The notes beneath the pieces are model-generated. The model did no database searches. It saw nothing but the letters and a program-made list of their open reading frames with translations, and was not told the origin of the DNA. This document shows, one piece after another, positions 2,690-57,513 of a stretch of 64,000 bases of DNA (positions are counted from its first letter, which is position 1; each line of letters starts with the position of its first letter). The translations under genes were made by a program, and so were the position numbers. Origin of the DNA: Ulota crispa (Eukaryota > Streptophyta > Bryopsida > Orthotrichales > Orthotrichaceae); contig OY987242.1 of NCBI GenBank assembly GCA_963920765.1, positions 6,846,789 through 6,910,788 of the forward strand, in the 5' to 3' direction.

Positions 2690-4483
2690 CAATTGTTGTT
2701 GAGCGAGACAGCTTCATAGAGATTTTGGAGAAATTTCTGAAGATAACTTGACAATCAGTGTGTGAGACCCAATGGTACTCTCTAACATGATCAATTGCAA
2801 GATGGAGAACAAGATGGAGAACATTGTGATGAGAGTGCTTTTTTTGTGCTGGAATTAAGTATACATACACACCAGATTTATGTGTTTGGTTTTTTAAAAC
2901 AAGAAAATTCACGGAAATCTTGGTACAGAACATTTTTACTGGTCGACCCAGTAGGGCTACTTGAAATACCGGTAAAACCTCTTTACAATGACAGTAAAAC
3001 CACAATTTCTAAGTGTATTGCAATCTTGGGCATGTCGTTGATAAACATCATATTTGTTGGATTCTTCTGAAATATTTTCACATAAATCCAAGTTCTGGTG
3101 CAAAGTTACAACTCAAGTTATCTTTTCTTTTAAAGTAGGGCATGCAAGAATTATTTTCACTATCTCATTAGTGTGGAATGTGGGAAAAGTCAGGAGAAAA
3201 TGGGTGAATACTCTTTCTGAGAAAATTGGGCCCCGTTCAGTGCAAAGGCACTTCGTATTAAGACCAAATGTTAAGGCCAATCAAGGAAAAGCACGGCCAA
3301 CAAAATGAGTTTTATAGCACCCACACGTGTTCATCATGTGCGTCTCCTACAGAAAATTCCTAGTTGTCTTGCCTATATTGCCCTTCACGTCGCTAAAATT
3401 TCTGGACAACTATGCACAAACAATTTCTTTTCACCATAACGTATATACTCAATTGGCCTGATTCTCATGCACACTTATGCAACATGTTTCAAGAATTGGA
3501 AGATACACACAAGTTCCAGATTAGATTTTCTCCTCCGGTTAACGCTCAAAAGTTAAAAAGCCTAATCTCATCAATGATAAGGATCCTTGGTTTGAAAAGT
3601 CATCACTTCACAAAACTAAATTCGCATTGAACACCTGCAGTCAAATAGCATATCACCCTAAAAATTCACCACAATTCAGAAGGCCGTAATCATAGGCAGT
3701 TGCGAATACAAATCCAAACAGAGCATTATGGATAAAATACAACCGGACTCATAAGTCCATTTTCAATGAAGCTGCCAAGGATGAGTCGAAAATTAGAGTC
3801 ACTCGTAAGGTTCGAAAAGCGCGAATAAGCACCCTACAGATCTTTCCAGATTCAAACAAGAGAGAGATTGCAAGATGTCTATCCCAACGACATGTACAAG
3901 AAAAATAAAATAAGAAACACTATCACAACTTCTTTATAAACGCAAAGAAAAAGGAGAACGTAACTTAAAAAAGAATGCACGCCGCCAAAAACCCTAAAAT
4001 ATAATCAGAAAAACTTTAACCCTAAAAGCTGCTATTCACTCCAACGGAAGTCTCAGCAAACAAATATTATAATTCTCTGGAGGTATTCAATCACAATCAT
4101 GAAGATACTACAGTTCACAATATGCGTCACTGTACTCGCGAAAAAAAGCATAATTAATAGAAAATAGTGACACAAATCAGAAGAAGCATCATGCAAAGGT
4201 GACGTCATCGAGAAACACAGGCAGAAAAATCCAGCAATAGTTTAAATTCCAAATTTCAGATAAGCATCGCTACAAACACCACATCAGCGCATAATATTCA
4301 GGTTGAATTCCACTTGTACAGCAGGTCTGCATAGAAAATGACGCAAACCTCTCTACCTCCAAAACTAGCCTCCAGATGCCGCTCCACTCCAGGTCCGATA
4401 ATGCTCGTTCTATCGAACCCTAATAATATGTCGTATGAGACACATGCTCAAATCCACGGCAGAGAGAAGACATCCATCCATCT

Positions 4484-5646: not shown

Positions 5647-8600
5647 ATGAAGTCGGTTGATCTTGTCTGTGGAATTGTAGTTTTTCTTTCTCTTCTTTTT
5701 TGGAACTTCGAGACTTCGCAGGCCACTCCTGCAATCCAGTTTGAGACCGATGCTTTTACCAATGAGCCTGTAGTCGGACCACCCGTGATACTCCCAGAGC
5801 CTCTGCCACTGATTCCTGATGATCCTGTAATAGAACCACCGGTGACACTGCCGGAGCCGATACCACTGATTCCAGGTCCAGGGGGAACGTGGAGCCCTTC
5901 AGCGCAAGCAGAGAAGGCAGAATCATCGGATCCCGTGCCAAATCCAATGCCAGAACCACCAGGTACACTAAGGTAGAAGCACCCAAATGCGACACTTACC
6001 TCAAATGTGGTAATTTGGAGGGTCTTTTGAGAATGTAATGGCATATGCTTGTTAAGAAATGGGTACAGATTCAAGCAAAATTATTTTCAGAATTTTCTGA
6101 GATTGTATGAATAAATTATGAATTGTTGAAGCTCCCTAGATTCACTTATTGTGGACACTAGACTCTTGAAAAAACGACAACAAGACCATGTCATGACAAC
6201 AAAAAGACCATGTCACACCTAATCATAAACCGCCATTTACACAATTTTTGTCCCCTTACGTCAACTTGCGTGTTTGATTTGGGTGCATGCATGTCTTGTT
6301 TGAGTGCATGAGTGTCTACTTTAGGTTTATTTTTAGATGTCAATAAACAACTAGTGTTACAATTGGGTGCTCCTACCTTAACTCCTCACAAGCACTTACT
6401 CTTTCTTTCTTTCTCCCTTCCCAGAGGTTAATCTCTCTCTTACGACCTAAAGTAAAATCACTCCTGCTATTCTCACTACTTCCGATGCTAGAAAAATCTT
6501 AACTATCAGATGCCTCCACCGTGGGAAATGCGCAGTGTTGTTTGATTACAGCGATGGACCGAACGGACCAGACCACTGGGGCGAGCTGAAGAGCGACTGG
6601 ACGTTATGCAAGTCAGGCTCCCAGCAATCGCCCCTCTCCATCACTCCCAGTCTCATCGTCACCGACAGCACTTTAGGCAACCTGAAGGCAAATTACACTC
6701 CCGAGAGCGTCAATGTGACCATTTCGCACGACGGCCGTGACCTCCAGGTGATCATCTAACTCCTCACAAATCTGCAAAGCTTTTGCTTTCCAATAACTAT
6801 CTGATTTCCACAAAAGATCTTTGCTGTTGTGGAGCTGAATACAGCGTTTTCAGAGGTTCTTACTGCAGTCTACTCCCTCTGACCTTCTAAAAAGATCCAA
6901 ATCATACACATTTCTTGTACCTCTAAAAAGCTCGCTTTTGCTAATTTCAAACACTGAAAAAGCGTTTGTCATGTTCAATGATATCATGGGACAAGTTAAG
7001 CAATTAGAGAACATTCCTCTCCTAGCAAGTTTGGCCTTGCCCATATGAGATATCACTGTTGCAACTAATCTTTAAATCATTAATAATGAGGAGTTGGCAA
7101 CATGCACAAATACGGTGCTTTTTTGCATAGAATTTGGGTGCCTAAATGACGACATCAAAACTGAAGATTTTGCATACATTTGGTAGATGGTATATTGACT
7201 CAGATAGAATACATGTGTCACTAGCACAAACACTAAAAACAGAGTTAATCCTTTGCAAGGAAACTTTTAGGACGTTTTAGAGGGACAAAGGGAGTACAGA
7301 ACAATACCATGAAAGCAATTGTTCTCATGATTCATAGCCTGGTCTTGGTGATGGTCACATGAAATTGTGCAAAGGTGTTTCAATGCAACAAAACATCAAA
7401 CGTGTTCATAAAATCTTGTTCTTTGACTTGGACTTCAACAATTATTTTTTGAATTGATGATAAGGTTGGGCTAGACCTTCTTCTTTGTGTTTTTTTGAGG
7501 CAGGTGAACATGCCGTCCAGCGCTGGAGTGTTGAAAATCTACAACGTCACGTACCGACTTGTCTCAATGCACTTCCACAGGCCAAGTGAACACCTCATTT
7601 TAAATTACAGGTTCACTAATCTGACTCGTTTCTTTGCCTACGTCATACTTACCATATTTGACTTAATTCTCACTAAATTCTAAAAAAAAAGTACATAGGT
7701 TCTAGATAGTTCAAAGTTTAGAAATAAAATCATTTTGTCATACAAATAGAAACTCAAAGCTTTGTCAATTTGTGGCTCTTATAAATTGCGTAGGGAAAGT
7801 TGTTGATAAGAGTGTCGTTCATGTTTGGTGAGCTTAGTTGTAAGGATAGGTACGACACTGAAATATTTCTTGATTGTCATAATCTTATTGCTTCATTTGT
7901 AATTGATTTGTAGACATCATTGTCACATTCTTAGAAGAATTGTTAGAACAATTTGTATTCAAGAGGTTGATTACAATGAAATCCTTCAATAACTGATTGG
8001 GACCTAGCTTAGGTTTTTATTTTATGTCACTTTATAGACACAATATTTGGATGGAGGAAATATGTAGTCTAGATTTGCATTCATGGTGCTAAATTTAGTT
8101 AAATGTGACATGGATTTGTGCATTTGGATGTGTACCCACAGCACTAAAACTACTTATTTACTAGTGTTGGTGTAAAATCTTTTCTAAAGGCATGGAATGG
8201 ATTTTCAGTTTCCCTTTGGAGCTTCATTTGGTGCATGAGTCGGAAGAAGGGAAGACTGCAATTGTGGCTTGGCTCTTTGTTCCTGGCTCTTCAAATAATA
8301 CGTTCCTTGCACAGGTTCTTTCTCCTTTCCTCCAATAGTAGATTACTCATGCCTTAATTGCACTAGCTCATGGATTGAAGAATCCATTTGTTGTTGGCAC
8401 CATTCAAAATACATTTTCAAAATAAGTTGTTTGCATGTGCAACAAGCATCAAAAGAATGAGATTGAATAGAAAAACATAAAAATAAATTAAAACACATGC
8501 AATTTTAGAACCACATTACCTAAAAGACTCTTCATGATTATTTCCATTTTTGGGGGTCATGTGAAACCTCCTCTTTGCTTACTTAGAATAGAGGAACGTG

Positions 8601-16710: not shown

Positions 16711-16915
16711 TCTTCTTCTTGTCTTCAACCCCTTGACTCCATGCGGATTGAGAATGTCCAAACTTTGAACAATCAAATGCATGCATGTGTGTATGTCCAT
16801 TGCTTCCATAAACATGAGGGTTTTCATGCATCAAAATTGTTTTTGGATTCTTGTGTTTCTACCATTTAGGGCAAACTTTCATGTTGGCTCTCGATTTAGA
16901 AACCTTAGCCCTTAA

Positions 16916-17686
16916 CCGCTGAGTGCCCCAGCGCCCCAGCGCCCCATATATCGTCTCTTAAGATTTAAAGCTTTGTTTTGAGGCACTGGATCTAACTTTT
17001 TGGTCTTGCTATAAACTACAATTATGAATGCATTCAAGTTGACCATGTCAATGGAGTAATGGCGGGGAATGCCAAATTGTTGTACAAGCGTTGTAAGGGA
17101 TTTGATTTGGTGAAACACCATACAGGGCAACGGGGGCATGGTAGCAAGCAACATTTTACAAGCTGCAATTGGTCAACATCCCTCGCAAGCTTCCTTGCGT
17201 AAGCTTTGTGGTAGCGGGAAAGTTGTTGGCAAGGGTTCAAGCATGTTCTAGACCCTTATTATGGCAATTGTCACCAATTGTGCCGGTCATTGTTTTCCGT
17301 GCAATAGCCATTTGAAGCCCTAAAACTTGACATAAAAAGAAGTGCAATCTTCAATAATTTACAAGTGTGTGCATTCACATCTAATCTTGTTGCTCACAAA
17401 ATTTAAGATGAATTAGGGGCTTATAGAATTTTGTAAAAATCATCAAATAGCAACTGCCTACCAAAAAATGAGATTCTATCATCACATGTTGTTTGATCAA
17501 ATGTTATAATCTCCCATCTCACATGGTTAGTTGTTCCCAAAATTTGCAAGCCTTCTTCTAAGTAGGTGTTCCACTATTTTCAATGGTCACTTTTTTCGGA
17601 TCATCTGATTGACTGAGATGCAATGCATCAAAATTATCAGTCTCCAAAACCCTGATTTTGGTGGAATTGGCATGGGCGCTCAAGGG
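16916..17686. mobile_element. TTAA-type element, subfamily D copy 1
   Basis: TTAA (16912-16915) precedes CCGCTGAGTGCCCCAG. On the right, the inverse of CCCTTGAGCGCCCATG ends at 17686 and is followed by TTAA (17687-17690). The ends match at roughly 12 of 17 positions. No coding frame of note; 771 bp. Confidence 0.6.
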
Positions 17687-17690
17687 TTAA

Positions 17691-18654
17691 CTCTTAAACG
17701 CCCTAGCAACGGGATCTTGTCATTGGGGATCACAACTTGATCTCACTTTTTTTCTTGACTTGTATGTTGAAAATAGTCATGGCTAGTCCTCATCTACAAA
17801 GAAGGTATTCCTTTTTCGAATCCTACGGTCACTTTTTCTGGATGTAATTTTCCAAGCTCTAGTGGCCATTAAACCCCCCATTTTCTGCTAAATCCTAAAA
17901 CAACTCCAAGCGCTCAAGGATTGAATATTGGACTTGTCACTGCAACCACTCCGGTTATAGTGAAATCTACGGTGTTCTCTAATGACTCTAGTGGTATTGT
18001 TGGTGTGACAAGTGCCCACTTATTGCAAAAGTCAACAATGCATGCTAACCTCATGAAAATTGCAAGAAGGGCATTGCCAAGGTTTTTTTTGGTCTTTTGA
18101 CCAATGGTTGTGTGGCATTTTGAAAATGGTTTGTAGCTTGCTGGCTCCATCCTATTTTTGGTTGGAGTTGAAGCATAGATTTTTGCAACATCATGGCTAT
18201 TAATAATGAAATTAAGGAGAAACTGGCACAATTAACGTTTTTGACAATGCTGTTGGATTTGTCTCATCATAAGAAGAATCATTAATTCTCAGTTTGATAA
18301 GTATTTTATGGAAGTCTAGGTTGCAATGGAATTTTTATTATTGCAATCTAGCATTTTTTAAAATTGTTTCCCCTTCTTTTTTCTACAGGCTTGAAGCTCA
18401 ACTTTTTTTTGAGACAATTGGGCCTTAAATTGCTCAAAAAAAAAACCTAGGCACTACGGGACTTAAGATTGTATTTGTGAGTCTTCTCACAATTTGGGTT
18501 ACCTAATAATACAAGTGTATTTCATGAGGTTGTTTTTTGCCTTTTGTTTATGATCACTTCTAGAAAAAAATCAGATGAAAAATGTTTGTTTTTGTCATAC
18601 AAAATGTATTTTTAGGGCCAAAAGACAAAAATTGTCCTCTTTAGCGTTTAAGGG
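17691..18654. mobile_element. TTAA-type element, subfamily D copy 2
   Basis: It starts CTCTTAAACGCCC directly after the TTAA shared with the preceding element. It ends GCGTTTAAGGG, whose inverse CCCTTAAACGC matches the left end, followed by TTAG (18655-18658). 964 bp, no convincing coding frame. Confidence 0.6.
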
Positions 18655-18658
18655 TTAG

Positions 18659-18893
18659 CCCCTTGTGGATGTTGTTGTTTTGTATATGCTCTTTGATGTT
18701 GTATACAAGTGGGGCACTTGGATAGCTCTTGAATCCCTTTGGAGTTGTAAACTTCAAGCCAAGTGATAGACATACTATTGGTCAATTACAATATTTTGGG
18801 GAATTTTTGGTATTTGTTATAATATCACTTCTTCAAGTATTGAATGGTCCTTGTATGAATACAACCAACACTTTCAATTGGTAAGCAACATCC
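18659..18893. mobile_element. TTAA-type element, subfamily C copy 2 (right end clipped)
   Basis: It starts CCCCTTGTGGATGTTG after TTAG and follows the 2451-2689 copy throughout. It ends GCAACATCC, then TTAA (18894-18897) and CCCCTAAATGC of the next element, so the last bases of its own right end (TTTAGGGG) are missing. Confidence 0.7.
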
Positions 18894-18983
18894 TTAACCC
18901 CTAAATGCTTGAGGGTACTTTCCTCAATTCAAGAAGGCATTTTGGAAGTTTTTGAACTATAGCTATTATAAGATCATTATAAA

Positions 18984-19537
18984 CCCCTAAAGGACCAAGT
19001 GTGGTTCAACAAACACCAGGTAGGTCATACAAAGTCAATTTTTATTGGATATTCTCAAAATTGTTACACAATGTGCAAATATGTATCCCCCAAGTGGAAA
19101 TGTAATTTTTTTTGCAATTGGATGCCCAATTCAAAAAATATGCTACCCAAAAGAATTTGGGTTGCTTGGACAATTTGGGCATCTTTGAAGAGTCTTATGC
19201 CAAAGCTCTCATCATTTTTTGAAATATGGCATGAACATAACTAACAAAATATGGTATACAATTGTCAAAAAAAAATGAGGTCTCAAATCACATTCTAAGA
19301 GGAGTCAAATTTTACTATGTCTATGTAGTTTCAAGAAAAAAATTCCTTCTAACTTCAAGCCCCATTATCTTGTAATTTATAAACTCAAAATACAAAAAAA
19401 AAGACACATATTTCAAATATTTGTCTCTAACTTTTCACCTTTCAGATTTTAAATAAAGTACTTCTTTGTTGAACAAGAAATCATGAAAAATGACTAGTGT
19501 ATTACCAATTCATTTAAGATATTTCCTAACAGTAAAG
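18984..19537. mobile_element. TTAA-type element, subfamily B copy 2 (truncated, inverted relative to 45522-46505)
   Basis: It begins CCCCTAAAGGACCAAGTGTG after TAAA. Its interior is the reverse complement of the right two thirds of 45522-46505: matching blocks include TTTTTATTGG, TATGTATCCCCCAAGTG, AAAGAATTTGGG and GAGGTCTCA. Homology fades near 19537, so one end is missing. Confidence 0.75.
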
Positions 19538-19540
19538 ATT

Positions 19541-19770
19541 GACTAGTAGTGTAATGGTATCGGAGTTGGTTTCAAAAATTAATTGTATTTTAAAATGCAG
19601 GATTGAGACCTTTTTTGGTTCCCAAAACAACCTCGGTTTATGTGTGCAACGACCTTGAGAGACTAAATCCAAAACGTCCTCCCCCTTTGGGCCCAAGCAT
19701 AGCAAAAAGTTGTTGTTTGGCTTGGCTGGCTCACGCTTCCCCATAAAAAGCGCTGAAAATTTCATGATGT
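19541..19770 (+). repeat. Possible tRNA-derived SINE
   Basis: TAGTGTAATGG (19547-19557) fits the pol III box A consensus, and GGATTGAGACC (19600-19610) partly fits box B about 50 bp downstream. The segment is less AT-rich than its surroundings and abuts the truncated end of the preceding element. I see no second copy in the window, so this is a weak call; a degenerate tRNA gene or chance is possible. Confidence 0.25.
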
Positions 19771-22700
19771 CAAAAAGATAAGTAACTTAAGCTTAAGTAT
19801 AATGGCGCAGTGTACATTCCCTCCAATGCAAAAATATTTTATAAATATTTTAACATTAATCACTAACACCTACACTCAACGCTTTCAGCTCCTAGCGCTA
19901 CCGATACAAAATGTCAATGGTAGAATGCATGACACTTATAACCAACAATTGTTGTTGCAACAAGAAGTATCGAAGCACAACATGTATACCTGTAAACTTA
20001 AAAACAATTTCACTAGCAAGAAGAGTGGAACCCAAGTTTCATCTTGGTGATCTTGGTGATTTTGAATTTTGGGTAGCTTGTTTTTTGATGTACCAATAAA
20101 TTGGCTGCTCAAATTCAGTAATAGTTGATTATAATTGTCATGCACTATGTGTTTAAAAAATACTCGTTTGGATTTTATACATGATGCCAGTTATATGTAC
20201 CATATCTCACTAACATCTTCAGCAAACAATTAATAAAAAATTATGAGTTGTGAATTCATTTTGCATTATATAGCCATCTTTCTAATAAGCAAATCTATAT
20301 TTTAATGAAATGAACCTGAATTTTTATAGAATGATAATTGAGAAAGTTCGTAAGGAGTATTAGGAAGTTTATTTAGAGAGCTGAATTACATGAATGCCGT
20401 ATTGAACTAAATTGGATTGTTTGTGTAATTTCGGATTGTTGTAAAACATAGGGAGATTCAAGTTGAAAGACATGTAACCTTAGATGCTTTGTATAATTCT
20501 CTCAGAAATTTGCAAAAAAAATCCAATATTTTGCATATGGATTATTATTCTTAAGATTTAGATAAGTTTAAATTAGTTAAATACATCATATGATAAGTGT
20601 TATAAGCTAAAGCTTAAGAGACAAAAAGATAATATATTTAATTTCGAAGATCATAAACTATAAATATGGTAGGCATATGCCTAACCTAAATAATTGGAGC
20701 CGTATCATGCATAAATCGCAAATTACATTAGGTGGATAAGGCAAATTATGCAGGTTTGGCAAGTTACATAGATAACATTCAAATGATTACTAAAAGAGAT
20801 CAGGGCATCCAAAGGAGATTTTTAAGACAATCTTGGCCAAATGTGAATGTCTTTTCTGGTACAAAATGAGATATTTTATGAATGAATCTTCCTTTAAAGA
20901 CATCCGTCAACGCCTTGTAGTTGTTGTCCTTCTCATCCCTCGCTTCATATATAATGCTTTCATAAGGACCAAACTGATTGTATGATGCAACCATCTCAAA
21001 CTTTGAAGGTTACAAAAAGTAGTATTTTTCTTAGTGTTTTGCATAAAGAGATAGATTTGTAATACAACTTGGACACGTGTCATAAGTACTAATAGTGAAG
21101 CCTTTTCTTTCTTTTTGCAGTTGAAGTAAAATTCTTGAACAAGGTGGTGTTTCATAAGGTCCACTTCAATATGCATTTCAAATAATCATCATTCAATGAT
21201 AGTAAAGAGGTTGCCAATGGTGACCAATGATTGCAGTGTATATTATTTATAAGAACAAAGTAGACTTTTAATCGTATAGTAGCCAACAAGGTGAGTATAT
21301 AACCTTAAGTATTAGCAATATTTTGAACCCTCTAGAAGACCTTTAAGAAGTCTCAAAAAGGATCCCAAGACATGTATTTATTGTAACAAATAACTCACTA
21401 ATCTCCTATATTTGTCCACCCTTCGAGTTCAATGCAATCATGAAAATCGTATTGATGTGCCATCTCATTAGAACAAATTGATATGGATACAATAGAACCA
21501 TAAATTATATTCTACTCTATTTGTATACATGAATGAAGTATCTAGATAGTGATGAGTGAGTTCATCTACATATCTTATCAATGCAATGCCTTTTTGTATT
21601 GTTTTAGATTGTGCATGTGAACAAGGTCCTTCATACAAGGACTAAATTACCATTTTCTATTTATGGTTTACAATAGAAAAGTCATGTAAGATAGAGACAC
21701 TTCATACACTTTCTAATGTACTTGGCCTAGGCTAAATAAATGTTAAAAAGTGTCAAGTCTAAAGGGCCTTGTAGAGAGTTCATAATTTTGCCTACAATAC
21801 ATCAAATTAGGAAACTTAATAAATTTTCAAATGTGACAAATTTCCCCAAGAGTCTATTTTAATTTTTTTACTTAAATGCTAAGTTATTGTTTCAAACTAT
21901 TGAAATAGATTGTTTTGTTTCCCTAGACAAAATATATTTCTTGTTTGCACAAGTTTGAACAACTTTCTAATGTTTACCTCTATATATATTTTGCACAGTT
22001 TATTTTATTCTATTTTCTTCATGATTATTCTTGTATGTTTTACGCTTTGCAATTTTTAAATTTTTTCTGGTCTAGACGTACTTGCATTAAAACAATCAAA
22101 TTGTTACATTAAAACAATCAAATTGTTAGTGAAAGCATAGCATTTATGATAAAATTGTAAAATTATGAAATATTTTTTTGTCAAACTCCTAAGAATAATA
22201 TTGAGACTACAAAGTTGCTTACCATGTTTTGGAAATAGAGTGTAAAGTACAAGTCTAGGACTACGAACATAGCAATTGAACACATGGAATATTTGCTAGT
22301 CTTTTAGATTTGTTGATTATAAAATCTGGCCCTTATTAAAATGTAACCATTGGAGCTATATTTTACAAAACTGTCCAAGGAACACAATTTATTGTGGCAT
22401 TTGCAACTCTTGGTAGGGACATTGGCAAAATTGTAGAAATTACGTGCAATAAAATATAAGGTTTAATATATTAATTTTGAGTAAAATTTGTAAGAAAACT
22501 AAATATAACATAGGGTTTTTAGTAGTGAAAAACATGATTATATATAATATAAGGTAGACAAAAAATGATGGAATCATGTAAGCCATAAAGATAGCATGGA
22601 GAAAAAGGGTGTCATGATTTCATTCTTGACTATGTTCTTCAACACAAATTGTATTCTTTCGTTTATTTTGTTTTCATTTGTATTACCAATGTTTATGTTG

Positions 22701-33887: not shown

Positions 33888-36800
33888 ATGTGGTCGACGT
33901 GGATATGGATTCTTGTAACAGCGGTAGTCTTGCAGTGCATCTTCAACACACGCGGAGCCTTGGGTGCCTTCGAGTGCGGCAAAGGGGTCACGACGAAGAG
34001 CTACGAAGAGTGCAAGCTCCTGCCTGCTCTGGACGCCTCCCTCGCTTGGACTCTCGACACGTCAACCAACTTCATCGACTTCGCTTTCACAGGTTCCACA
34101 GATTCCTCCTTCACAGCCAAGTATATATTACTGTTTATTAGTCCTTCATAGTTGCCATCTGTAGTACTAACAATATATAACCATATTAGGTAAATCGGGA
34201 AAACGGAGGGACCATTTTGTACTCCACCTTAATCCCACATCATTAAATGTAGGCATAGCTTGCGGGGCATCGCTATTGCTCAAAAGTTATAATTATTAAA
34301 GTTCTTGGAGGCAATCACTGAGAGTCTGAGACTTCACTATTGTACAAAAAATGCATGCTCATTTTCGCGTGATATGCTAATATATACATAATGGCAAATA
34401 CAGTGAAAATCCCAGAATGTACTGTTTTCCTCAACTTAATCTAATATGGTGTTTACTGCCCTTTCAGTAGTCTTCGACCTGTGGTGTTGTTACTGCGGAT
34501 CAAAGAGTGCTCACTTTGGTTTTGCCAAGAGGTTCACAGACACGGCACATTGCTCTTTGAAACAACATACTAGATCTCCTTTTAATGAACTTCTCTGAAT
34601 TATCACTAGAATCTCTCCACTTTTTACCGTTTTTATCGGGAGCGTTTCATTAACAATGGACCTGTTTAGGAGTTGTTAGTAAATGTTTGTAAACTTTATT
34701 TGAAAGGGATGTTTTGAGGGGAGTTTGGTGATGGTTTGGTGTGGATTTACTAAAGAGGTGGGAGGACTTTTGATTCCCAAGCAGAAGATTTGGTGAGCAC
34801 TTCCGGCTGGGTAGCATGGGGAATTAATCCAGATGGCGCTCAAATGGTGGGCACGCAAGCACTGGGGGCGTTTCGGAATGGCACGGGGATTTCAGTGAGG
34901 ACGTACGACGTAACCGGTGCGGTGAAGAGCTTGCAACGGAGCCTGGTTCCGGGCCCTGTAACCGTGGCCTACTCCAACTACTCCGCTACTGTGACTGACG
35001 CTGGTACCGTGACCATCACCGGCACGGTGAAACTGAAACCCGGGCAGTCCACTTCCCTGAATCTGGTTTGGAACCGCGGCCCTGCCATGGTGGCCGTCAC
35101 GTCCGCTCTCGGCAGCCACCCTTTTGATAACGACAACATTGCAAGCACTGCCGTGGTGGAGATGTCCACTGGCCAGCAAACTGGTGGCGGTGAAGTCCCC
35201 AACAATAAGCTGAAAGATGTGAGTTTTTCTAACCCTTAACCTCTAAGCGTCACAGCGGATGTTTTCCAAATCAGGATTTCAGAAACAACCCAGTAATTAA
35301 ACTTTATTATTATCTGTACATCTATATGGTATATTTTCACAAATGCTACAAATTTGTACTTATTGAGAAGTTGTTAACAAATTTCTACGGTGAGTTTTTT
35401 AGTTATGGTTTACACTCCAAGTTATTTTTAGAACACTTTCCCAAACTTGTCTAGATCCCTATTTTATTTGTGACACTTAAGGGCTAACCCTTGATGTTTG
35501 AGCGTGCTACTACCACTAGTACAATACGAGGTGTTTTTTGTGTATTTGAAGTAGATTCACACCTTTACTACATTTGAGATCAACAAAGAAGATGGAGAAT
35601 AGATAAAAGCAATTTTAATGAGCTACTTGGGATCCCGAATTAAAATTTCTTATTGGTAGCAAATGCCAATTATATGGCAACATATATACTATGCCCTATG
35701 GTCATTTATGGGTTAAACGCTAGTGGGGACGTTTTTTGTATAGCAAAAAAATCCTATGTAGGATGGAAACAAGTTATTTTCCATCTAATTTTTTCAAAAC
35801 TGATCATACATACATGGTCCATCATGGAAGGCAAAAAAAAAACCTCATCAAACACACTCATATTTTTAAGTAACTCAAATTGTGAGAAGATTCAAAAATA
35901 TTATGTTAAGTCTCATATTACCCATCTTACGATTTTCATGAAGACACCATACACTATCGTAAGTATGTCACTTATTGTGCGCAACCACTTACCATGCACA
36001 AGTTCATATTATGCATAGCCGCTTACTACACACTTTTAATGTTGGCCGTCAAAACAACTCACATGCAATCTCAAGAGTTTCATGCTTCTCAAACTCAATT
36101 GCATCAATGACCTAAAACGTTACAATCAAATGGTGACAAGTCACATGGCAAAACCTCGTTAATTTCCTATACTTACAAAGAAGAAGACAACATTTGTAGC
36201 TCCTATAGTGAAACCTATCATACACGGTTAGTGGATGGCACATTGGTCACACATTAGTGTATGTACTTGTGAACTTGATTGTAGAAAGGTTACAACTTTT
36301 CAAATAAAATTGTCATTCCATTTTATCACAATACTTTCATCTCATTTACCAAGTACAATATAAATGAAAATTAGTATAAAAATGGTACCCACCTTGTAAA
36401 AAGCCGTTCGAAACCCAAATATGCACAATGAGTAACATGTATATGAGTTTTTAGAAACAATATTATAATGGGTGGGCAATTGCCACAGCCTCTGTAGAGC
36501 GGAGAGCAGACTGAGCACTGTAGAGTTATTGTACGGGGCAGTCACGATGACCAGTCAGGCGTTTAGCTGCTAAATACAGAATTCCCGAGTGTCCGTGCTG
36601 AACCCATGTGAGTAGTTTGACCTAGTTTGACCATAATTGCTTTCCAACCTGTTGAAATGGGATCTTTTTTGAACTCCTGGATTGGTGAAATCACTACTCA
36701 GTTTATGAGACTTGGCTGGTTCTGTGGTTGCGTTTGAGTGTTGGATGTCTCCTAAGTATGGCATTGATAACCTGAAGGTAGAGCCTCATTATCAGAACTA

Positions 36801-45521: not shown

Positions 45522-45713
45522 CCCCTAAAGTCCCAAGGGGTGTTTTCACCAAAAACTACCAAATATGTGTTTTTTCAATATGTTGATTTGAATTTTAACT
45601 TGAAAACTATTTTTCAAACTTCAACCATACAAAATTGTAGTAAGATATTTTAGTATTGAGTGCAAAAAATTTCAGCCTATTTGACCACACGGATTGAAAG
45701 ATTATAGCATTTG

Positions 45714-45775
<62 letters not shown>

Positions 45776-46505
45776 CATGCCCAATTAGGTCAGCAAACTT
45801 TGAGCCTCTTTGGAGTCACATTTTTGGTTGGCATGAATTAAAGTTTTTTTTTCCACTAATGTTTAAATCTGGTTAGGTACACTCATGAAAAGTTTCAAGA
45901 ACAAATTATGAATCTAACTTACTCTAAATTGCCAAGAATAAGGAAGTTAAGTGAATTGGCAATGCATTAGTCATTCTTTCATGATTTCTTGTGCACTCAA
46001 GACATCTTTCATTTGAAATCTGAATGATGAAGTTAGAGACAAACATTTGGAATGTTTGATAAAAAATTCAAGAGCTTCAAATTTATAGATTGAAAGATAA
46101 TAGGCCTTGAAGTTAGAGGAAAACATTTTTTCTTGAAACTACCTGAACATAGTTAACAAAGTTTGACTCCCTTTAGAATGTGATGTGAGACCTCAATTTA
46201 TTTATTTATTTGACTATTGTACACCATGTCTTTTTAGTTACATACTTGCCAAATTTCAAAAGTTGATGAGAGTTTTAGCATAAGATTCTCCAAAGATGCC
46301 CAAAATGCTCAAAGTGCCCAAATTCTTTTAGGTAGCACAACTTTTGAATTAGGCATCTGATTGGGGAAAAATTTATATTTTCACTTGGGGGATACATATT
46401 TACACCTTGTTTAACAATTTTGAGGACACCCAATAAAAATTAACTCCATATGACCCTAGCCAAGTTCTCCAATGGTTGTTGAATAAACACTTGGGCCTTT
46501 AGGGG
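45522..46505. mobile_element. TTAA-type element, subfamily B copy 1 (both ends intact)
   Basis: Left end CCCCTAAAGTCCCAAG after TTAA (45518-45521). The right end is the inverse of CCCCTAAAGGCCCAAG before TTAA (46506-46509). 984 bp. A truncated, inverted copy lies at 18984-19537. The interior holds an (AT)n microsatellite and no long reading frame, so it is non-autonomous. Confidence 0.8.
45716..45772. repeat. (AT)n microsatellite
   Basis: About 28 uninterrupted AT dinucleotides inside the subfamily B element. Confidence 0.97.
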
Positions 46506-54660: not shown

Positions 54661-56028
54661 CTCCATAATTTTTAGCCCAAGCGGCTAAAAATGCTGCTAA
54701 TTGTGCTCCTGTTTACCTGCCAGTACAGTAATCGACAATGGCAATTTAACAGTGATGATTGCTTGGTAGAAGGTTTGCTCAGTTTTGCAACATTATCAGT
54801 GGTACTTTTCATTTTTCATTTTAGCTCTCAGCAATAGCGACCTCTAAACTGGCTAAATTTCGCAGGATTGCTACCAGCTAAAAAAAACTTATGTGCACTT
54901 TAGAATGTTAAATTTGAAAATTTTAGCTTTTTAGCATTGTTTTCCACTTGAGCTGATTGTGAAAATCATGTTTGGGATCACTGCTCAGCATCCTTGGTTG
55001 GCTTTGGTTCACGCGCCTGGCTGAAGGGTCATTTTACATGGGCACTGCAGCAAACCTCCGTACTAAGAGACTCGGGTGAAGGGTGGGTCAGGCAAAGGGG
55101 TTAATTTAATTTAATTGCCCAGGGGTGTGGATTAGAGTGGCAGGGAATGCATCATGGCCGTGCTGAGTACGAACCATGTACAATCAGTTTTTTATTTTAA
55201 TTCTCTGGAGTTCATGTCTGCCAGCATGGTGGCCACTGCCACAAGCCAATTCCCACTTTGAAGACCCTGTGATCAAACGCCCTTGACTGGCAGGAGTACT
55301 TCATATTTGCATCAATGTCCTGCAAGTAAGGACCTCTTTTACACTAGGAGAGAGTTGCGGCCATTTTGGAGTCTTATTCCTTACCTCACATAACTTACAT
55401 GAAAGCAATCAACCTCAAGGGCTATCAAATCAAGAGCGAAGGGTAGAAAGTTGAAAGTTCAAAAACCATTTCAAGCTTGAAATTAAAGGCCAGATGTGTC
55501 TCTACCCTCAAGCTCAAGAATTGGGTTCACTAAACGTAAAAGGTCAATTTTGTGATTCTTGGACTGTTCTATCAAGTATAATTGAAATATGATAGTTTTA
55601 GTATATAAACCGAAAAAAGAAAAAAGAAGGGTTGTCGGTAGGATGGCATTGAAATTTCAGCCCTTTTTGCTTGGTTTTCTACTTCATTTTTTTTCCTTTT
55701 CTTTTTTAAGATTTTCAAGACTTGTAGTAAGGACCCCGGGATTTTGGTCACTAGGAACTCTAGACACAAATGAAAAGAACCTCCATTATTCTTTTACTTT
55801 TTATGAGTGCTTGAGACCATTCTTGAAGTTACATGGGCTGAAGTATTTGGTACGATCTCCCGACCTAAATTTTCAGAGCTTCTATCATATTTTTGTTTTA
55901 TTTTCAACAAATGCGGAATTTGAGATTTTAGCACACATTTTTAGAGTCTCTTGAGGTGCGATGAACCCATGATGTGGCCCTATATGCTGGAGCATGACCA
56001 CATGGAAGGAAGTGTAAATGTCAATTAA
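54661..56028. other. Gene-free AT-rich stretch
   Basis: I see no gene, paired element ends or tandem repeat here. The open frames at 55572-55954 on both strands are chance overlaps. Confidence 0.5.
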
Positions 56029-56804
56029 CCCCTAAAGGATTGAGTGTTTGTTTGGGGGACAAATGGGATTTTGGGCATGTACCTATGGCTAAACTACTTT
56101 GTGTGATTTTTTGAAACTATTATGGAAGATGGGGAATTCAAAGATATGTGTGCACATCTAAAAAATTTGTTTTGATGTTTTTTGAAGAAGTAAAAAATGA
56201 ATTTCTGAATTTTTTTTGGAGATGGGGCAGTCTGGGCAGCCCAAAAACTTTTTTGAAATTTACATTTTTTTAATTTAAAAATCTGAAATTGGTTCTTTGA
56301 GTTTACTTATACATGGGAAGCTTTGAATCACTCATTTTCAATAAATGAGATGAAAGTTATGAGGACTTTTAGTTAACTGGTAGATATGGCTCTTTTAGTT
56401 AACTGGTAGATATGGCTCCATATCTACCAGTTAACTAAAAGAGCCATATCTACCAATTAACTAAAAGTCCTCATAACTTTCATCTCATTTATTGAAAATG
56501 AGTGATTCAAAGCTTCCCATGTATAAGTAAACTCAAAGAACCAATTTCAGATTTTTAAATTAAAAAAATGTAAATTTCAAAAAAGTTTTTGGGCTGCCCA
56601 GACTGCCCCATCTCCAAAAAAAATTCAGAAATTCATTTTTTACTTCTTCAAAAAACATCAAAACAAATTTTTTAGATGTGCACACATATCTTTGAATTCC
56701 CCATCTTCCATAATAGTTTCAAAAAATCACACAAAGTAGTTTAGCCATAGGTACATGCCCGAAATCCCATTTGTCCCCCAAACAGACACTCAATCCTTTA
56801 GGGG
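56029..56804. mobile_element. TTAA-type element, loopless 776-bp palindrome (subfamily A copy 1)
   Basis: It starts CCCCTAAAGGATTGAGTG after TTAA (56025-56028) and ends CAATCCTTTAGGGG before TTAA (56805-56808). The two halves are near-perfect inverses around 56416/56417, leaving about 2 unpaired bases. Near the centre each arm contains a doubled block with TTAACTGGTAGATATGGCTC. Only a few single-base differences separate the arms. Confidence 0.9.
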
Positions 56805-56863
56805 TTAAACTCAGGTGGTTTGTGGTAAGCTTAGACCTATAAGGGAGAGAAAGAATTCCTTAG

Positions 56864-57513
56864 CCCCTAAAGGACCAAGCCCCCTTTTCGGGGACAAATG
56901 GGATTTTGGGCACATAACTATGGCTAAACTACTTTGCGTGACTTTTTGAAACTTTTATGGAAGATGGGGAATTCAAAAATCTATGTGGGCATCTAATTTT
57001 TTCCTCATTTTGACATTTATTGAAGAAGTTAAAATTGAATTTATGAGAATTTTAGTTTGGCGGGCAGCCCAAAAATTTCTTGAAAAATTGCATTTTTTTA
57101 AATAAAAATTTGAGGTTAGTTATTTAGACATATGTATATGTGGGAAGCTTTGAATCATTCAATTCTAATTAATGAGATGAAAGTTATGAGAAGCTTTCAT
57201 CTCATTAATTAGAATTGAATGGTTCAAAGCTTCCCACATATACGTAAGTTTAAAGAACTAAACTTGAATTTTTATTTTAAAAAAATGCAAGTTTTAAAAA
57301 AGTTTTTGGGCTACCCGCCGAACTAAAACTCTCATAAATTCATTTTTAACTTCTTTAATAAATGTCGGAATGAGGTAAAAATTAAATGCCCACACAGATT
57401 TTTGAATTCCCCATCTTCCATAAAAGTTTCAAAAAATTACACAAAATAATTTAGCCATAAGTACATGCCCGAAATCCCGAAAGTCCCCTGAGGGAATTTT
57501 GGTCCTTTAGGGG
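56864..57513. mobile_element. TTAA-type element, 650-bp palindrome (subfamily A copy 2)
   Basis: It starts CCCCTAAAGGACCAAG after TTAG and ends TTGGTCCTTTAGGGG before TTAA. It is palindromic around 57188/57189 with a loop of about 10 bases. Arms share blocks with the 56029-56804 element (GGGACAAATGGGATTTTGGG, TATGGCTAAACTACTTTG, GGAAGATGGGGAATTC, GGAAGCTTTGAATCA) but are clearly diverged from it. Confidence 0.9.

Follow-up and report, generated by a model that had tools for sequence, protein, structure and literature searches.

Stacked TTAA-flanked non-autonomous elements, probably of piggyBac type, in the genome of the moss Ulota crispa

Introduction

The closest described counterparts of the locus reported here come from corals and from two plants. 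The coral CMITEs are piggyBac-type miniature inverted-repeat transposable elements (MITEs) with TTAA, and their tandem arrays are ascribed by the authors to slippage (PMC2872659). The SaTar arrays of guayule and rice are reported to be non-nested multimers of unrelated non-autonomous Mutator-like elements (MULEs) at microsatellites (PMC5907723). We analysed a 64,000-nucleotide stretch of the Ulota crispa genome, hereafter the window, in which an earlier note made from the letters alone had read positions 16916-19537 as a chain of elements sharing single TTAA junctions. Our analysis suggests, with a probability that we put at about 85%, that in this region at least six non-autonomous TTAA elements, each mobile by itself (E1, G, E2, E3, F, and E4), are stacked together with one hAT-like MITE; the six would be moved by piggyBac-type transposases of this genome. 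The proposed chain is real and its mechanism holds in outline, but two of its boundaries and its claim of strength did not stand.

The coral elements (PMC2872659) are similar in having TTAA on both sides, CCC-starting repeats, autonomous relatives, end-to-end arrays, and an interior that for the most part does not resemble the transposase gene. The coral arrays, however, repeat one kind of element plus a spacer. In the moss, a plant, members of different families meet at a single TTAA, and GGGTTAACCC joints number in the thousands. The SaTars (PMC5907723) share with the moss stack the linear end-to-end arrangement of unrelated small elements at a target sequence in plants. They differ in their microsatellite joints, in being of Mu type, and in that, according to the abstract, no element is interrupted by another; in the moss the joint is one TTAA, the transposase is of piggyBac type, and elements have also entered within terminal repeats. 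The case joins the coral and guayule patterns, with unrelated piggyBac-type elements assembled at single TTAA words.

The elements Wuneng and Microuli come from plants (rice). Both share the TTAA duplication, and PMC2872659 names them in passing. A paper on animal piggyBac (PMC10813416) states in its summary that plants, too, have yielded piggyBac elements, which weighs against novelty on that point. In passages of a moss genome paper, the word "piggyback" is used only for expression piggybacking. Among the matches listed by a word-matching search of Creative Commons-licensed articles in PMC, no title or abstract beginning dealt with such stacks in a plant.

Composition of the chain in the window

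The window lies in contig C1, and genome-wide searches covered the 275-Mb assembly of 157 contigs; scored matches are the best 40 places per query, that is, the window and 39 further ones. Other loci and contigs are cited by L and C numbers. The words that separate the elements are TTAA at 16912-16915, 17687-17690, and 18894-18897, TTAG at 18655-18658, and TAAA at 18980-18983. Read from the sequence, these words and the end motifs stand where the earlier note had placed them. Its list of elements was right in that E1 and E3 are independent dispersed families, but more elements are present than it named, and its fourth is incomplete. All elements of the chain are described on the plus strand.

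E1 (16916-17686), delimited by its copies and by end alignment, is a 771-bp non-autonomous piggyBac-type element with the ends CCGCTGAGTGCCCC and TGGGCGCTCAAGGG. A query covering 16900-19560 yielded 9,660 candidates, of which 40 places were scored, and E1 was the main match in all 39 outside the window, at 83-90% identity. One of these places has a second E1 match beside it (79%), and eight rows are E4 matches near E1. Seven E1 copies (L002-L008) have identical end points, in agreement with the ends first proposed for the window copy, and each is bordered left and right by TTAA or by a word that differs from it in one base, with exact TTAA on both sides in three (L002, L006, and L007); further E1 copies in L081-L088 lie outside this count. 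Upstream of E1, positions 16905-16915 (TTAG-CCC-TTAA) probably represent the outer end of the left terminal repeat of E2, a reading that involves seven bases.

The region first taken as the second element (17691-18654) consists of element sequence but is not a single element. The TTAA at 17687-17690 is common to E1 and to G (17691-17920), a 230-bp MITE with E1-like terminal repeats. An identical junction occurs in L002, where G adjoins E1 and the match extends past E1 to 17925, and another G copy, in L042, is 84% identical over 228 bp at a locus with no E1 match. By alignment, TTGA at 17921-17924 is a worn TTAA that separates G from the E2 core (17925-18654), a TTAA element with the terminal repeat CYCTTAAACG... 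that is split by another MITE. E2 units that align with this core occur in L004 and L081. They do not contain the 371-bp MITE, and they start with TTAG-CTC-TTAA-ACG in L004 and with TTAA-CCC-TTAA-AGG in the second unit of L081. The MITE within E2 (18078-18448), unrelated to it, has the termini CA..GTTTT and AAAAC..TG and is high-copy, with 39 further scored places, near some of which other pieces of E2 match. At two of its copies, L011 and L018, this MITE stands between direct repeats of 8 bp. Repeats of this length fit hAT elements, and we classify the MITE as hAT-like from these sequence features.

As read from the sequence, TTAG (18655-18658) stands between E2 and E3. E3 (18659-18893) belongs to a MITE family of ~239 bp with the ends CCCCTAAAGGATGTTG and CAACATCCTTTAGGGG, and it is cut at a TTAA within its right terminal repeat (18894-18897) that is used by F. 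The E3 search gave 39 further scored matches from 1,088 candidates, and the 29 copies that were fetched (L040-L068, the window excluded) carry exact TTAA on the left in 23 cases, on the right in 19, and on both sides in 14. The window copy stops at CATCC-TTAA and is without the last four bases (GGGG) of the family right end because F begins at this TTAA. F (18898-18979), which starts CCCCTAAATGC..., matched an element end in L094 from base 1 (80% identical along 59 bp, with E 5.6e-13 when just these two sequences were compared), and this match identifies it as the left-end fragment of another TTAA family.

The TAAA at 18980-18983, between F and E4, is a worn TTAA, and L085, L086, and L087 carry TTAA at this point. 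By its matches and alignment, E4 (18984-19513) is the 5' portion of a longer element; three full-length relatives measure 827-962 bp and have a second CCC-type end. Among 1,662 candidates for a 554-base E4 query, the 39 further scored matches started within the first 11 bases in 28 cases and at bases 34-40 in 11, and all 39 stopped at bases 529-534. The window copy diverges from L085, L086, and L087 at an internal TTAA of E4 (19514-19517). The 5' end proposed earlier for this element was right, but 19537 is not the family end, as the family match stops at that TTAA. Among the fetched loci, no relatives were found of the flank upstream of the chain or of 19518-20300. Taken together, TTAA flanks and CCC terminal repeats are present for E3, E4, G, E2, and F, with F represented by its left end only, the E2 left end seen only in worn or entered form, and the window E4 followed only up to its internal TTAA.

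Changing partners at other loci

Outside the window, E1 plus G is the most that any single scored match spans, so 16916-19537 does not form one unit. The earlier note had conceded that the chain would fail if the region always occurred as one piece; in fact, copies of the families are found at other places beside TTAA words and in different company. Spread of the whole stretch as a single composite transposon, its inner TTAA words being incidental, could account for the recurrence of E1 followed by an E2 unit (L004 and L081), of E1 followed by G (L002), and of the E4-E1 pair with a common outer flank beside it (L082-L084). This explanation is refuted for the whole stretch by the limit of the scored matches; E1, E3, G, and E4 each occur without the others, and partners and orientation vary. 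We therefore consider it very improbable, and co-copying of some pairs is possible.

E1 and E4 meet 5' to 5' on one TTAA in L082-L084, 3' of E1 to 5' of E4 on one TTAA in L088, and 3' to 3' either on one TTAA (L086) or across TTAAGGGTTAA (L085) or TTAAGTTCCCTTAA (L087). Other rows occur as well: in L081, E1 is joined by two E2 units and by an element that lies between TTAA words and has the ends GGTAGCAACACCC, and in L002 the row is an CGCTCAGGGG end, E1, and G. L081-L088 were picked for having a second match and show that such junctions exist rather than their frequency; the query at 16900-19560 contains E1 to E4, and the best-listed loci are biased to those with two of them. In a separate observation, an E4-E1 pair with its flank forms an inverted duplication ~25 kb apart (C3:32957085-32958423 and C3:32982974-32984312) with identical scores.

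Local tandem duplication or replication slippage, proposed for the coral arrays, has a precedent in piggyBac-type MITEs (PMC2872659). In the moss, the neighbours belong to different families with unrelated internal sequence, and duplication of one unit cannot produce them; slippage is refuted for this stretch and has hardly any likelihood left. A further rival does without transposition and has TTAA words line up by chance in AT-rich DNA; it would draw on the density of 5.3 TTAA per kb here. This too is refuted, and we give it practically no credence, as in many copies the boundaries of the family fall on these words and pairs of empty and filled sites exist.

Before and after states

For a query that joined an E4 end, through TTAA, to the flank beyond E1 in L083, an uninterrupted match was obtained at C2:20714399-20714568 (L103; 89%, bases 1-169), where the alignment runs through the E4 end, one TTAA, and the flank. 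The halves of the same query matched apart in four places (C2, C4, and an inverted pair on C3), and E1 lies between two TTAAs in the three split places that were read (L082, L083, and L084). An empty site with one TTAA, which the earlier note had named as support if seen in related accessions, is present for E1 at an E4 edge, at a paralogous locus of this genome.

The second pair concerns E3. The copy in L055 reads CATCC-TTAA-[534 bp]-TTAA-GGGG-TTAA, with an insert that runs from CCCCTAAGCG to CTTTAGGGG, while the uninterrupted ends in L040, L052, and L057 read CGTCC, TATCC, and CATCC, respectively, followed by TTAAGGGG. This comparison indicates that a TTAA within a terminal repeat is a usable target and that the remainder of the repeat stays beyond the newcomer. 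Both before/after pairs fit cut-and-paste movement at element ends, judged from the aligned sequences. In such a mechanism, each insertion would consume one TTAA and leave TTAA on each side, and landing in a neighbour's flanking or terminal-repeat TTAA would leave one word serving two neighbours. These states were seen at two other sets of loci, from which we infer the same process for the window.

Transposase source

The transposase domain PF13843 (DDE_Tnp_1_7) has 120 matches in the genome, all above the cut-off (best E 1.3e-73). In-frame stops interrupt 110 of them (contigs C1-C11), and ten rows are without stops, for example L079. The open frame of L079 (389 residues) matched PF13843 at E 4.1e-67 and, in the PDB, piggyBat (9c0f) at E 2.6e-24 and piggyBac (6x67) at E 7.6e-20. 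L078, extended by L104, is a complete transposase-bearing element of 5,018 bp flanked by TTCA (worn) and TTAA, and its terminal repeats, CCCCTCATTGCCGA and the reverse complement of CCCTTCATTGCCGA, match at 13 of 14 bases. GAAGGG-TTAA closes the right end, the only end seen, of both L069 and L074; L069 is 90% identical to L078. Automatic pairing of terminal repeats in 12 fetched transposase loci found no ends for the other nine and missed L078 because its left end lay outside the fetched flank. The transposase-bearing elements thus have the features of piggyBac, namely the domain and, in the one complete element, TTAA with CCC-starting inverted repeats.

To relate the MITEs to these elements, end alignments were scored against 200 single-base shuffles. 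The right 200 bp of E1 aligned with the three transposase-element right ends (L078, L069, and L074) at z 4.2, 6.2, and 5.3, one of 200 shuffles scoring slightly higher in the z 4.2 case, and the E1 copy of L006 gave z 5.4, 6.1, and 7.3. The TTAA flanks, the CCC repeats, and this right-end link to a transposase-bearing element support E1 as a putative piggyBac-type MITE. For E2, E3, E4, G, and F, target and termini point to piggyBac-type movers. Some 175 bp from the right end, L078+L104 (4862-4888) and E1 (578-603) have in common a 27-bp stretch, alike at 93%, that may be an internal binding site.

How common is stacking

Exact words were counted on both strands of the whole genome. TTAACCC occurs 94,222 times and TTAAGGG 43,352 times, an excess of ~51,000 ends; TTAAGGG was chosen as the control over the reversed word CCCAATT (65,105), which would give an excess of ~29,000, because it keeps TTAA. 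The joint GGGTTAACCC is found at 3,258 sites, compared with 161 for its reversed control. We expected ~1,500 such sites (~1,076 from chance GGG plus ~442 from random use of TTAA), and the observed number is ~2x the sum; the chance estimate used here (~1,076) exceeds the reversed control. In 14 sampled sites, taken from the first 18 distinct ones listed with no rule for the four omitted, element-like ends judged by eye were present on both sides in nine, on one side in four, and on neither in one. The halves of GGGTTAACCC sites recur with changing partners.

The E3/E4-type end, TTAACCCCTAAAGGA, has 11,696 occurrences (reversed control, 0). GGG stands directly across the TTAA at 632 of these ends (5.4%), all eight G/C triplets together accounting for 1,251, where the TTAAGGG rate would predict 173 and the average over the other seven G/C triplets 88. 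Those seven are not all neutral, as the first 100 listed places, read by eye, comprised 54 GGG, 27 CCC, and 13 GCC. CCC before TTAACCCCTAAAGGA may result from insertions into a TTAA inside the terminal repeat.

These surpluses, and the two insertions (in the window and in L055) at the same TTAA inside an E3 repeat, could indicate directed stacking, in which the transposase favours TTAA beside or inside its own terminal repeats. The background argues for a smaller effect. The window and 196 kb of flanks both have 5.3 TTAA per kb, which corresponds to ~1.46 million sites in the genome, and CCC adjoins 3.2% of all TTAA sides compared with 5.4% at E3/E4-type ends, only 1.7-fold. After subtraction of chance GGG (0.75-1.5%), 3.9-4.6% stands against 1.7% for random use of TTAA, a ~2-3-fold difference. 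At the edges of E3 in the 29 fetched loci, the outcome depended on the definition of the motif: 1 of 45 versus 33 of 2,070 in the background for the strict motif (p 0.52), 3 of 45 versus 61 of 2,070 for CCC only (p 0.15), and 4 of 45 versus 52 of 2,070 for the loose motif (p 0.03). The genome-wide counts still include regional clusters and copied blocks. An active preference for edges is consequently a doubtful explanation, though not a negligible one.

Stacking is real and somewhat commoner than random, and density, regional clustering, and copied blocks could explain the excess. The earlier note had asked whether TTAA-adjacent insertion exceeds chance; it does, at 1.7- to 2-3-fold, but a strong edge preference is not needed. 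The best explanation is that most chains arise because element ends are dense and TTAA words are too, and that terminal repeats with a TTAA of their own contribute.

Proposed order of insertion

With TTAG on both sides, E2 would be the oldest member of the stack. E1 and G would have entered a TTAA three bases inside the E2 left repeat, the hAT-like MITE would have broken E2, and E3 would share the TTAG at the E2 right end. F may then have entered the TTAA inside the E3 right repeat, and E4 would have entered F. Later, E4 and F would have lost their right parts, E4 exactly at its internal TTAA, where the break may reflect a deletion between TTAA words. The earlier note had placed the insertions at the TTAA of an element's edge: the use of TTAA holds, but for E1, G, and F the outer edge probably does not. 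Most likely, these three sit in a TTAA inside the neighbour's terminal repeat and did not use the TTAA duplicated on its outside; in the E2 and E3 ends, the internal TTAA lies 3-4 bp from the tip.

Several points weigh against this account. The order and age of the insertions in the window are deduced from the window itself and from other loci, and the E2 remnant upstream of E1 is seven bases only. The leftover GGGG-TTAA of E3 was not found downstream of 19517 among the TTAA/TCAA words listed to ~22.2 kb, so the right part of the stack must have been lost or altered. L103 could represent precise excision of E1 instead of a site never filled; in either case E1 appears to behave as a cut-and-paste unit bounded by TTAA at another element's edge. 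L082, L083, and L084 have a common flank beyond E1, and some junctions were copied as blocks.

The left end of E1 gave no alignment (z 0.0-1.8) with the three transposase-element right ends, right ends only being compared. BLAST against the 12 transposase loci returned nothing for E3, a lowest E of 0.022 (16 bp) for E4, and a lowest E of 0.48 for E2. E2, E3, and E4 gave no alignment above shuffles with the three right ends, the terminal CCC and the target being all that they have in common, so that their mobilisation by piggyBac-type transposases is argued from target and terminus only.

Palindromes and other TTAA elements in the window

Two palindromic elements lie further along the plus strand. 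The first (56029-56804; CCCCTAAAGGATTG) is near-perfect and has TTAA on both sides; counted with its TTAAs (56025-56808), its arms of 391 nt are 99% complementary with 2 nt between them, and it is probably a young foldback element. The second (56864-57513; CCCCTAAAGGACCA) is flanked by TTAG and TTAA. The pair at 56.0-57.5 kb, which the earlier note had suspected of the same preference, is present with 59 bp between its members, but it has no shared junction.

A second class of TTAA-word elements has the ends GGTAGMARCACCC in place of CCC and is represented in the window at 5972-6377 (left word CTAA, right word TTAA), in L081 at 1581-1900, and in the right flank of L045. In L045 the element has a TTAA in common with an E3 copy, and in L081 TTAAGGGTTAA separates one from an E2 unit. 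Other TTAA-type elements of the window are located at 45522-46505 (terminal repeats 13/14, flanks TTAA/TTAA) and at 35240-35483 (terminal repeats 11/14, flanks TTAA/CTAA). A gene with a NAM domain, which belongs to a plant family and so fits a plant genome, is located at 52.1-52.7 kb.

Implications

The terminal repeats of several TTAA families of this genome might have, or easily gain, a TTAA 3-4 bases in (CCC-TTAA-AGG and CCCC-TTAA-GGATG), and this could act as a landing pad that survives insertion. We regard this idea as speculative and rather unlikely. If true, each newcomer would bring further TTAAs, stacks would grow both inwards and outwards from the ends, and the tendency to stack would be inherited with the terminal repeat, whether or not it is under selection.

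The moss genome offers a countable case of transposon stacking at a short target, with 3,258 exact GGGTTAACCC words in one plant genome and with before and after states. Edge targeting as opposed to mere density thereby becomes measurable, and abundant piggyBac-type transposases and MITEs are documented in a plant.

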